DNA of 64,000 nt, from assembly GCF_020150455.1 (NCBI RefSeq), contig NZ_CP083740.1, positions 5,601,001 through 5,665,000 of the forward strand, written 5' to 3'. Position 1 is the first letter of the stretch; each line of letters opens with the position of its first letter. Source of the stretch: Bremerella sp. TYQ1. GTDB lineage: Bacteria; Planctomycetota; Planctomycetia; Pirellulales; Pirellulaceae. Under the pieces are notes generated by a model. The model was given only the letters and a program-made list of their open reading frames with translations. It did not search any database and was not told the origin of the DNA. A program made the translations under genes and the position numbers. Below are positions 50,228 to 54,279 of the stretch, one piece after another.

Positions 50228-51820
50228 ATGCAGTGGATACGCCACGGGCTAACGAGCGTCGTTGTTTTAACCGCGCTAGGATGTCTTGGCTCTGGACTTA
50301 ACCAGGCCGCAGCACAGGACATCGTGCCACAACTGACCGCGCCATCACCGATTACACCATCGGTTCCGACTCAGCCGTTGATTACGGGGATTCGCCTGCA
50401 AGGGAATGCTCAGACGGAAGAAACACGGATTCGATCGATGATTAAATCGCGTGTGGGTCGAGAGTTTGACGCGGAGCAAATTCAGTCAGACGTTCGCCGT
50501 TTGGCAGCTTCCGGACTTTTTCGCGACGTCAAAATTCTGACCGATAAGTCTGCCGAAGGCATCTATGTCACGTTCCAGTTCGAGGAACGCCCACGCATTG
50601 GCTATATCAAGTTTCTCGGCAACGAATCGGTCCGCGACAAAACGCTTCTGAAAAAGTCGGAGATGCGACTCGAAGGAACGCTGAATAAGTACGTTATCGA
50701 AGAAGCCCGCATCAAGCTGGAAGACTATTACCACACTCGTGGACACGGAAAAGCGACGGTTCAGGTAGTTGAAGGCCTAGGCCCCGAAGACAAAGGGGTT
50801 GTCTTTATGATCCATGAAGGGCCACTGGCTCGAATCGGTAGTACTGCATTCGTGGGCAATTCGATCGCTTCCGACAGTCGATTGAAAACGCAAGTCAAAA
50901 GCAAGCCAGGCTGGTTCTATGTTCTTAAGGGCCAACTCGATAAATCGCAGCTGGAACAAGACGTCGACAGCCTGACCGCTTATTATCGAAGCCTTGGTTT
51001 CTTCAAAGCACAGATCAATCGCATCGTCGAGTACAGCGACAGTGGATTGTGGGCTTATGTCACTTTTGTGATTGACGAAGGGCCTCGCTATGAAGTTCGC
51101 AACATCTCGTTTGTGGGGCATACTCGCTTCGAGACCGAACAGCTGACTAGCCAAGTCAAAATGGAACGAGGCGAGTACTTCGATCAGAAGAAGATGAATG
51201 CGGATATCCGCGCGATTTCTGACTTGTACGGCTCGCAAGGATATATCCACGCAGACGTTCAAGCCGAGCCTCGCTTCCTGGAAACACCAGGGACGCTTGA
51301 CTTGGTGTATGACATTCGCGAAGGAGATCAGTACCGCGTTGGAAATATCAACATCGAAATCAGCGGTGACTTCCCGCACACGAAGCACGCGGTGATTCTT
51401 AACCGCATGTCGCTTCAGCCAGGCGATATCATCGACATCACAAAGATCCGTGACGACGAACGCCGTATCAAAGCCTCGCAGCTTTTTGTCAACGAGCCGC
51501 ACCGTGGCGTAACCCCTTCGATTACCGTGGCTCCTCCCGAGCTTAGCGAAGTCGAGACGCAAGTTGCTCAGCAGCGCGGTGGTGGAACGTATCGCGGTCA
51601 AAGTCCCAATACAAACTACGCGAATCAAGTCCATTCACAGAATGGGTATCCTGTGCAGCAAAGTAACTATCAACAAGCTCCATCGCACACGTCGCCGCCA
51701 CAGCAAGCGGTGCCACAGATGAGCCGTTATTCGCAGCCTGTATATCGTGAAGCCGCAGTGCCGACGCACCCGCAGCACTATCCAAACTCCGTTTATTCAT
51801 CATCCGTGCCGAACAACTAA
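50228..51820 (+). CDS. POTRA-only half of a split BamA/Omp85 protein
   Basis: Exported protein (530 residues, signal peptide to about residue 29, AAAQD). Residues 51-121, 122-199, 200-286 and 287-367 are four POTRA repeats (LITGIRLQGNAQTEETRI, IGYIKFLGNESVRDKTLL, IGSTAFVGNSIASDSRL, VRNISFVGHTRFETEQL). Residues 368-436 hold most of a fifth, YRVGNINIEISGDFPHTKHA to SITVAPPE, where the final strand expected before the barrel is missing. A Q/P/Y/N-rich, probably disordered tail runs 445-530. No barrel follows. The next gene carries the barrel, 58 bases downstream in another frame. Confidence 0.9.
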   Translation: MQWIRHGLTSVVVLTALGCLGSGLNQAAAQDIVPQLTAPSPITPSVPTQPLITGIRLQGNAQTEETRIRSMIKSRVGREFDAEQIQSDVRRLAASGLFRDVKILTDKSAEGIYVTFQFEERPRIGYIKFLGNESVRDKTLLKKSEMRLEGTLNKYVIEEARIKLEDYYHTRGHGKATVQVVEGLGPEDKGVVFMIHEGPLARIGSTAFVGNSIASDSRLKTQVKSKPGWFYVLKGQLDKSQLEQDVDSLTAYYRSLGFFKAQINRIVEYSDSGLWAYVTFVIDEGPRYEVRNISFVGHTRFETEQLTSQVKMERGEYFDQKKMNADIRAISDLYGSQGYIHADVQAEPRFLETPGTLDLVYDIREGDQYRVGNINIEISGDFPHTKHAVILNRMSLQPGDIIDITKIRDDERRIKASQLFVNEPHRGVTPSITVAPPELSEVETQVAQQRGGGTYRGQSPNTNYANQVHSQNGYPVQQSNYQQAPSHTSPPQQAVPQMSRYSQPVYREAAVPTHPQHYPNSVYSSSVPNN

Positions 51821-51878
51821 GAAGCCTGGTTCAGCTCGATTTCCCCCCCGAGCGCCAACGCTGAATGAGGACCCCTAG

Positions 51879-53498
51879 GTGGACAGAAGCGGAAAACTGC
51901 TGAAGATAACCATCGCTCTGAGTTTCATGGCTTGCACTACCGCAGCATGGAATTCGGTTTCGGCTCAGAACTGGGTCGACAACCGTGGGCAACAGGCCGC
52001 ACCGAACTGGAACGTTCAGGGGCGAGACAGCCAAGGTTATCCTGGAAGCGCACAGAACTGGGATTCGTACGATCGCGCGGCCTATGAAGCGTCGCCTGGC
52101 AATCCGAATCAGTACCGAAACGGAATGCCTGCCTCAGGATCACCCATTGGCACCTACGAACCGTACCAACAGCAACAAGCGGTTCAGCCGGTTCAGTACC
52201 AGCAGGGATATCCTTCACCGTCCAATCCCGAAACGGGAATGTACAACACCGATCCTTCAGGCTACCCGTACGGAGCTCCTCCCGTACCAGCCCCTGTGAC
52301 TGGACCTCCCGGAACGTACGGCTATCCTCAGAACAATGGTCGACCGCTAGGTGGTGCTCGTATTTATGATCCGCCGTTAGGACCAGATGCGATCATCTCT
52401 CCAAACCCTTATTACGACCCAGGCCGAACTGCTGACCTGACTATTCGTGCGGAAGAAGCTCAGACGGGGCGATTCCAATTCGGTGTCGGTATCAACTCCG
52501 ACGCCGGTGTGACCGGTTCGATCGTTATCGACGAACGTAACTTCGACTGGAAACGTTACCCGACCAGCGTCGACGACGTTTGGAACGGCCGAGCATGGCG
52601 TGGAGCAGGGCAGGGTTTCCGTATCGAAGCAATGCCGGGTAGCCAAGTGCAGCGTTACATGGTCAGCTTCAGCGAGCCCTATCTGTTCAATACACGTGTC
52701 AGTTTGAACTTGAGTGGTTACTTCTTCAATCGAATCTATCGCGACTGGGACGAACAGCGTGTCGGTGGACGTGTTGGCTTGGGCTATCGCTTGACGCCTG
52801 ACCTTTCCACATCGGTCAGCCTTCGAATGGAAGATGTCGAGATCAGTGATCCTCGCGTGCCTGGCGTGCCGGAACTTGACGCCGTGCTGGGACACCAAGA
52901 CTTGTACACCGGTAGCTGGAGCATTTCGCACGATACACGCGACTTGGCATTCGCTCCGACCGAAGGTCACCTATTTGAGATCAACTTGGAACAAGCTTTC
53001 GGCGAGTACAACTATTCGCGAGCCGAAGTTGACTTCCGTCAGTACTTCCTGCTAGGCGAGCGTCCGGATGGTTCAGGCCGTCACACGTTGGGCTTCTCGA
53101 CACGCGCAGGCTTCTCAGGTTCCGATACGCCAATCTTTGAGAACTTCTACGCTGGTGGTTTCTCGACGCTGCGTGGTTTCGACTTCCGTCGTGTTGGTCC
53201 GAAGTCGGGCGACGTGTTCATTGGTGGTCCGTTTCGTCTGTTAGGCTCCGTGGAATACACGTTCCCGATCACTGCCGACGACATGGTCAAGGGTGTGCTC
53301 TTCACCGACGTTGGTGCAGTCGAAGAGTCGACGAAGATTGTGTGGGATGATTTCGACGTCGCACCTGGTTTCGGTTTGCGAATCTCGGTGCCTGCGTTGG
53401 GACAAGCTCCGATTGCATTGGACTTTGCCTTCCCAATCAACCACGCCGACACCGACCAGACTCAGGTATTCAGCTTCTTCGTCGGTGCTGCTCGTTAA
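51879..53498 (+). CDS. bamA: Barrel half of a split BamA/Omp85 protein
   Basis: An outer-membrane beta-barrel with its own signal peptide (cleaved near VSAQ, residue 30). Residues 31-175 are rich in Q, P, Y, G and N. Residues 184-200 (ADLTIRAEEAQTGRFQFGVG) match the last POTRA5 strand and barrel entry of BamA, then NSDAGVTGSIVIDERNFDW and the barrel. Loop-6 motif LRGFDFRRVGP is near residue 431. The C-terminus ends VFSFFVGAAR, lacking the usual final Phe. The GTG start at 51879 has GAGGA eight bases upstream. It probably works with the preceding POTRA protein in outer-membrane protein insertion. Confidence 0.9.
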   Translation: MDRSGKLLKITIALSFMACTTAAWNSVSAQNWVDNRGQQAAPNWNVQGRDSQGYPGSAQNWDSYDRAAYEASPGNPNQYRNGMPASGSPIGTYEPYQQQQAVQPVQYQQGYPSPSNPETGMYNTDPSGYPYGAPPVPAPVTGPPGTYGYPQNNGRPLGGARIYDPPLGPDAIISPNPYYDPGRTADLTIRAEEAQTGRFQFGVGINSDAGVTGSIVIDERNFDWKRYPTSVDDVWNGRAWRGAGQGFRIEAMPGSQVQRYMVSFSEPYLFNTRVSLNLSGYFFNRIYRDWDEQRVGGRVGLGYRLTPDLSTSVSLRMEDVEISDPRVPGVPELDAVLGHQDLYTGSWSISHDTRDLAFAPTEGHLFEINLEQAFGEYNYSRAEVDFRQYFLLGERPDGSGRHTLGFSTRAGFSGSDTPIFENFYAGGFSTLRGFDFRRVGPKSGDVFIGGPFRLLGSVEYTFPITADDMVKGVLFTDVGAVEESTKIVWDDFDVAPGFGLRISVPALGQAPIALDFAFPINHADTDQTQVFSFFVGAAR

Positions 53499-53664: not shown

Positions 53665-54279
53665 ATGCAGCGAAGAGAGTTTCTGAAGCACCTGAGTGTC
53701 CCGATCTATTTTGGGCCTGTTGCTTGTGCTTTGAGTGGTTGCGGTACGCTATTACATACCGACCGCGTCCATCGTCCACATTCCCATCAAATCGACTGGA
53801 AAGTCGCTGCCCTGAACGGTTTGGGAATGTTGTTTTTCTTTGTCCCCGGCGTCGTGGCGTTTGCGGTCGACTTCTATACGGGGGCGATCTATTTGCCGTA
53901 CGACGAGTGCTATCTGCCTCCGACTCAGAGCGAACCAGTGCCAAGTGCCCCGGCGGTTCCTGTGGAGAGCGTTCCATCGCCGCCAGCTATGGGGCCCTCG
54001 CTAACTCCTGCCGGACCAATGCACCAGACCTCGCACGCTTCACCCGGATTGCCAGGCCTGCGACAAGTTCACGTGCCGCGCGAAAGACTTAACGCGCAAA
54101 CGCTGGAACAAGTGGTCTCAGCCCAAGTGGGGCAGCAAGTATCGTTTGAGCAGCAACCAGTCCGAATTAGTGAGCTTGCTCAGATCGACTCTTTCGACAT
54201 GCAAAGAGAACGGCACGAGTCTGATCATCAGTTTGGTTTCAGTATTGGAAACCTGCTGGATCGACTACGAAATGCTTAG
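53665..54279 (+). CDS. Predicted Tat-exported lipoprotein
   Basis: The N-terminus QRREFLK matches the twin-arginine motif, followed by a hydrophobic stretch and the lipobox ALSGC (Cys26), so it is probably an exported lipoprotein. Residues about 48-78 (AALNGLGMLFFFVPGVVAFAVDFYTGAIYLP) form a hydrophobic segment. A Pro-rich region and a polar C-terminus follow. I recognise no named family. It lies 166 bases after the barrel gene on the same strand, so a link to outer-membrane assembly is possible but unproven. Confidence 0.7.
   Translation: MQRREFLKHLSVPIYFGPVACALSGCGTLLHTDRVHRPHSHQIDWKVAALNGLGMLFFFVPGVVAFAVDFYTGAIYLPYDECYLPPTQSEPVPSAPAVPVESVPSPPAMGPSLTPAGPMHQTSHASPGLPGLRQVHVPRERLNAQTLEQVVSAQVGQQVSFEQQPVRISELAQIDSFDMQRERHESDHQFGFSIGNLLDRLRNA

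Follow-up and report, generated by a model that had tools for sequence, protein, structure and literature searches.

A two-chain BamA in Bremerella sp. TYQ1 and its relatives, with predicted strand complementation in the fifth POTRA domain

The 64,000-nucleotide stretch of the Bremerella sp. TYQ1 genome analysed here (contig NZ_CP083740.1, positions 5,601,001 to 5,665,000; hereafter the window) carries two adjacent open reading frames, ORF1 and ORF2, which together specify the outer-membrane protein assembly factor BamA. Elsewhere BamA is a single protein; here it is encoded as two exported proteins cut inside one domain, the fifth POTRA domain (POTRA5), with one half probably lending the other a strand. 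This two-chain BamA is real and widespread, and strand complementation is the best-supported mechanism by which its halves are joined. We put the probability of a two-chain BamA joined in this manner, with pairing in trans predicted, at about 0.78. A function in outer-membrane protein assembly is likewise predicted.

Architecture and position of the cut

Profile searches revealed five stretches of PF07244 (POTRA) in ORF1 and an Omp85 domain in ORF2 (PF01103, 181 bits). The BamA model TIGR03303 is shared between them, ORF1 covering positions 3–370 and ORF2 386–738. As in BamA there are five tandem POTRAs, the last of them partial, and a C-terminal Omp85 barrel with the RGF motif, but POTRAs and barrel do not lie in one polypeptide: there are two ORFs and two signal peptides. 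A preliminary description of this DNA, made from its letters alone, had placed the two genes in different frames and 58 bases apart, which the coordinates confirm exactly, and had put the break inside POTRA5. The latter agrees with the genome search, in which the fifth POTRA of ORF1 covers only positions 1–45 of the 79 in PF07244, and with the presence of the third strand (β3) on ORF2. The Q/P/Y-rich tail ascribed to the first gene, and the signal peptide, Q/P/Y-rich leader and LRGF ascribed to the second, were all recovered; Q, P and Y make up 39% of the tail and 38% of the leader, and by eye the signals end in ..AAAQ (ORF1) and ..SAQ (ORF2), both Sec-like. The suspected ribosome site before ORF2, GAGGAC, is identical in eight of the nine species of the genus and GAGGAT in the other. 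The barrel does lack the usual final Phe, its last residue being Arg; this is no mark of the split, since single-chain planctomycete BamAs also tend to finish on Arg (45 of 58, compared with 64 of the 77 split ones).

The cut maps to about residue 410 of Escherichia coli BamA. The ORF1 model aligned with residues 24 to 408–410 (rows covering ORF1 residues 50–442), with a root-mean-square deviation (rmsd) of about 8–16 Å over the whole arm; for POTRA4-5 against 5efr it was 2.0 Å over 146 residues. The first strand of ORF2 aligned in a profile search on QVDVVYKVKERNTGSFNF of the E. coli protein (4c4v chain index 65, which is residue 411 if its 464-residue chain ends at 810). ORF1 can thus be laid on residues 24 to about 409 and ORF2 from about 411 onward, a weak stretch supported by the TIGR03303 match from 386, and the two alignments together place the cut in the turn between β2 and β3 of POTRA5.

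The only BamA found in the genome

The genome is a single contig of 6.66 Mb (completeness 96.5). PF01103 matched in one place and PF07244 in five, all in ORF1, and no second, conventional BamA was found in the 6.66 Mb with these two models. The conventional single-chain BamA elsewhere in the genome, which the preliminary description had named as an argument against its own proposal, did not appear: the only POTRA and Omp85 matches are those of the pair. Weak extra matches to the BamA search are present in some relatives. According to PMC10632474, bamA is essential in Planctopirus limnophila.

Within the genus the ratio of nonsynonymous to synonymous substitution rates (dN/dS) is 0.02–0.04 for ORF1 (5 of 8 comparisons computable) and 0.02–0.08 for ORF2 (8 of 8), values which are rough because many dS exceed 1 and are saturated. 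Judged by these ratios, selection maintains both ORFs throughout the genus. The best single match in the genome to the BamD model TIGR03302 is a lipoprotein (66 bits against a cut-off of 81.4; PF13525 above its cut-off), and for two long TPR frames the sum of the matches exceeds the TIGR03302 cut-off.

Distribution of the split

Sixty genomes were searched, 59 gave a match, and 60 loci were read from those 59. The preliminary description had proposed looking for the same split across planctomycetes; in the window's family all 37 genomes read have the halves in different ORFs, some cut by contig ends. Every one of the nine genomes from the window's genus is among them, and three of the nine consist of one contig. 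The 22 genomes from elsewhere in the order comprise five with the split (six loci, one genome having two pairs) and 17 with single chains. Searches of the class and phylum took in 98 and 99 genomes, and 20 loci were read among the matches listed: six are of the same order, three split loci from the window's family and three single-chain loci from other families, and the 14 outside the order are all single-chain, six of them conventional and eight with an insert of 116–229 residues. The named loci were the best 80 of 479 confirmed; six have no ORF1 at a contig end, and the remaining 74 comprise 26 single chains and 48 split loci, of which L174 is doubtful. The split is seen, for example, in Blastopirellula marina DSM 3645, Roseimaritima sediminicola and Planctomycetes bacterium CA13. 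The split is no local accident.

Database names for the halves differ (e.g. POTRA domain-containing protein, BamA/TamA family outer membrane protein). Single frames of 1080–1146 residues in six genomes of the family (G011, G017, G020, G024, G027 and G035) each proved to be two ORFs with stops between, and listed frame lengths accordingly entered no count. L174, from a metagenome bin, has overlapping frames and no recognised signal, and is probably a frameshift in a single-chain BamA. One genome of family f5 (G040, 99% completeness) gave no TIGR03303 match, its BamA being either missed or lost.

Origin of the split

Single-chain Pirellulales carry low-complexity sequence at the POTRA5 β2–β3 loop, 159–453 residues long in 17 genomes; the shortest such insert among the named single-chain loci has 108. 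In families f21 and f22 of the class the insert is shorter, and in f23–f26 the loop is ordinary. These single-chain proteins, including those of f21 and f22, thus have an insert at the same point as the break, with R-x-Q motifs in most; they differ from the pair in being one chain, with 108–453 residues in place of the break. No inner signal peptide was recognised in the single-chain relatives with an insert. As read from these sequences, a conventional chain first acquired a long stretch of low-complexity sequence in the POTRA5 β2–β3 loop and was later broken within that insert.

For the trees, 160 loci were reduced to 136 rows (six without ORF1, five short and 13 duplicates dropped) over 730 alignment columns, the insert being excluded. 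One clade holds 70 split rows (Shimodaira–Hasegawa-like approximate likelihood ratio test 100), 22 of which have 100/99 support in a careful 65-row tree. A single clade of all 29 splits in the 65-row set was rejected by the approximately unbiased test (p 0.007), whereas one of the 27 splits without the f5 pair was not (p 0.588), nor was one of the 75 split rows outside f5 in a quick tree (p 0.905). From the rejection it follows that fission occurred at the same insert at least twice, unless re-fusion made single chains; a single early fission with later re-fusions may be the alternative. The f5 genome with two split pairs (G058; L090 and L094) has Sec-like signals and apparently represents a separate fission.

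Proposed strand complementation and alternatives

Modelled alone with AlphaFold2, the ORF1 of the window forms the POTRA5 helices and no strand of three or more residues at β1 or β2. The preliminary description had suggested that two exported proteins meet in the periplasm and possibly complete one domain between them, a proposal which the analysis supports, with pairing in trans as a prediction. It had accepted that an already complete POTRA5 in the first protein would tell against it; the lone model has no POTRA5 sheet. In a read-through model of a relative's pair (L129), strands β1 and β2 form and the ORF2 strand is present, running on into the barrel. A relative's model also matches BamA barrels of known structure. 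Furthermore, β3 of ORF2 keeps its alternating pattern, and 26 of 77 ORF1s end soon after β2.

Based upon these results we suggest that ORF1 would be exported as a periplasmic POTRA arm, bringing β1, the two helices and β2, and ORF2 as an outer-membrane barrel, bringing β3 at the foot of the first barrel strand. In most of the family ORF2 would also be lipid-anchored, as its signal predicts. Insertion of β3 into POTRA5, a pairing in trans which we infer, would attach the arm to the barrel and restore the domain beside it. The low-complexity tail and leader would be the remains of the disordered insert of a single-chain ancestor, and the site of its fission.

Several points weigh against strand complementation between two chains. 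Being a single chain, the read-through model brings the halves close together by construction, and AlphaFold2 knows BamA; the read-through model (L129) and the lone ORF1 model (window) come from different species, and strand pairing in the models was read from DSSP. Structure rows spanning all POTRAs have an rmsd of about 8–20 Å and are no test of the arm's overall course. The match of the ORF2 strand to solved E. coli BamA (5.3 bits) is weak by itself, neither half reaches the curated TIGR03303 cut-off of 297 (244.1 bits for ORF1, 169.5 for ORF2), and the signal peptides were assessed by pattern and by eye. Lastly, a loose pattern picks out 17 of 77 ORF1 tails in which RGQSP or something similar precedes a strand-like stretch (e.g. 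LDLNIYV) that could complete POTRA5 in cis.

This last observation leads to a two-chain BamA whose POTRA5 is not completed by ORF2, the strand coming from the protein's own tail or the halves meeting through other contacts (tail with leader, RGQ motifs, BamD). We consider it unlikely, even with the RGQ motif of tails and leaders conserved far above shuffles (see below): the tail of the window ORF1 does not match the pattern and is not among the 17, and the missing sheet of the lone model, the ORF1s which stop soon after β2 and the maintained alternation of β3 all argue against self-completion. One might also assume a specialised Omp85 of the TamA/TamL type and not a general outer-membrane protein assembly factor, since lipidated Omp85s such as TamL are known and most ORF2 relatives have a lipobox-like signal. 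TamA and TamL have three POTRAs, however, and the pair five; TIGR03303 gives 244 and 170 bits for the halves against 46 and 37 with the TamL model (cut-off 400), and the pair is the sole Omp85 found in the genome, so that we hold such a role to be very improbable.

Joining of the halves at translation into one BamA, by frameshift or stop read-through, has less still to recommend it. In some relatives the two ORFs do share a frame with a single stop between, but all three relative frames occur, and for this variation between relatives in-frame read-through or frameshifting was rejected; in addition, a start and a signal-like N-terminus are present in almost every ORF2, the gap ranges from −7 to 294 nucleotides where the start was recognised, and a read-through product would contain an internal signal peptide. 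The chance of an assembly artefact, or of a decaying pair with the real BamA elsewhere, we regard as negligible. One of 78 split rows (L174) is frameshift-like in a metagenome bin and many genomes are drafts, but the split recurs in 9/9 genomes of the genus, including the single-contig ones, dN/dS is 0.02–0.08, and no second Omp85 was found.

Signals on the barrel half

By a PROSITE-type lipobox rule, 45 of 68 split ORF2s outside the window's genus have a lipoprotein-type signal; the controls pass less often, with 10 of 77 for split ORF1s and 4 of 58 for single chains. Of the 23 ORF2s which fail the rule, 17 were read by eye as lipoprotein-type (giving 62/68) and the other six as Sec-like. The Bremerella ORF2s are Sec-like by eye and one of nine passes the rule, so that in the window's genus the barrel would not be of the lipidated Omp85 kind. 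The barrel half is therefore a predicted lipoprotein in most split relatives and not in the window's genus. The window ORF1 passes the rule at LTALGC, being one of the ten control passes and the only such ORF1 of the genus, and the window ORF2 passes a looser rule at FMAC; both are read as chance because neither is general in the genus. In L129, L131 and L068 the POTRA half also has a lipobox-like N-terminus.

The RGQ motif

Scored as RGQ followed by S, D, N, A, G or Q, the motif was counted in 50 of the 77 ORF1 tails (0.7 on average in shuffles), in the last 180 residues of 43 of 77 ORF2 leaders (1.5) and in 43 of 52 inserts over 60 residues (2.0). RGQ or RMQ motifs also occur in the f22 and f21 inserts, and for this reason look older than the fission. 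That RGQ is a docking motif is a guess. As a genome-wide signal RGQSP[DN] was rejected (4 DNA hits against 7 for the control).

A BamD-like lipoprotein of the same genome (L201:1363-2649, minus strand; G000:C1:6091314-6092597) has RGQSPD in its N-terminal tail, and each of the nine genomes of the genus has RGQSP at this place. As a general feature of BamD, RGQ was discarded, being present in 11 of 59 N-terminal tails, nine of them from those nine genomes. The downstream neighbour of the BamD-like gene matches LptE (PF04390). It is conceivable, though we would not wager on it, that the beta-barrel assembly machinery of Pirellulaceae comes apart into modules, its barrel anchored by lipid and its POTRA arm diffusible, the two docking via the POTRA5 strand, with arm binding possibly reversible and regulated and with RGQSP in tail, leader and Bremerella BamD-like protein as a common docking signal.

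Relation to known systems

The pair shares with E. coli BamA the five POTRAs, the Omp85 barrel, the RGF motif and the order of parts; it differs in having two polypeptides, two signal peptides, a break between β2 and β3 of POTRA5, and a long low-complexity tail and leader. TamL, the lipidated TamA of Bacteroidota, is likewise a lipoprotein with an Omp85 barrel, the character predicted for most ORF2 relatives, but has its POTRAs in the same chain as the barrel. In the donor-strand complementation of chaperone-usher pili a domain without a strand is completed by the strand of another chain; there the fold is different and the pairing is between pilus subunits, whereas here it would be between halves of one ancestral protein.

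No report of a split BamA was found in the open literature, as covered by titles and the beginnings of abstracts, most subscription journals and preprints lying outside the search. Speth et al. (2012, PMC3422733) recorded one BamA per planctomycete by BLAST, Pirellula, Blastopirellula and Rhodopirellula included; the words split, fragment, truncat-, fused and POTRA are absent from its text. Nor was a split form mentioned in the available parts of PMC8871954 or PMC13067283 (section 1.1 included).

A natural two-chain BamA, encoded at a single locus in the genome searched and the rule in the family as read, would show that BamA can do without a covalent connection of its POTRA arm to its barrel. 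Such a protein would offer a system for probing POTRA5 coupling in which arm, strand and lipid anchor are separately changeable. The path from conventional chain through disordered insert and fission to a new signal peptide would be a clear case of a protein cut inside a folded domain.

Features of the locus

Table 1. Coordinates of the split bamA locus within the window
Feature	Position	Strand	Remarks
ORF1, BamA POTRA half, 530 aa	50228..51820	+	Signal peptide, POTRA1-4, POTRA5 β1-α1-α2-β2, Q/P/Y-rich tail; profile matches, model, E. coli BamA alignment
Putative Sec signal peptide of ORF1	50228..50314	+	To AAA of AAA-QD; by eye
Incomplete POTRA5 of ORF1, without β3	51329..51544	+	Profile search, model
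β1 and β2 segments of ORF1 POTRA5	51329-51364; 51518-51544	+	Helices after β1
YRGQSPN	51590..51610	+	Conserved RGQ motif of ORF1 tail
Intergenic gap, 58 nt	51821..51878	+	Kept within genus
Small inverted repeat	51834-51853	+	Inside gap
GAGGAC	51867-51872	+	Inside gap, upstream of ORF2
ORF2, BamA barrel half, 539 aa	51879..53498	+	GTG start; signal peptide, Q/P/Y-rich leader, POTRA5 β3, Omp85 barrel
Putative Sec signal peptide of ORF2	51879..51965	+	Lipoprotein-type in most relatives outside genus
Q/P/Y-rich leader of ORF2	51966..52430	+	Lies where single-chain relatives have part of their insert
ADLTIRAEEAQTGRFQFGVG, POTRA5 β3 and first barrel strand of ORF2	52431..52490	+	
LRGF motif of ORF2 barrel	53169..53180	+	

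The gap between the ORFs is strongly conserved in the nine species although synonymous sites elsewhere are near saturation, and its inverted repeat, GCTCG..CGAGC around a run of C, is invariant in them. No RNA element was recognised in the gap: there was no Rfam match, and its fold (z-score −0.65) is no better than that of shuffles. The next gene downstream (53665–54279) specifies 204 residues with no Pfam match and a hydrophobic N-terminus containing a cysteine (ALSGCG).
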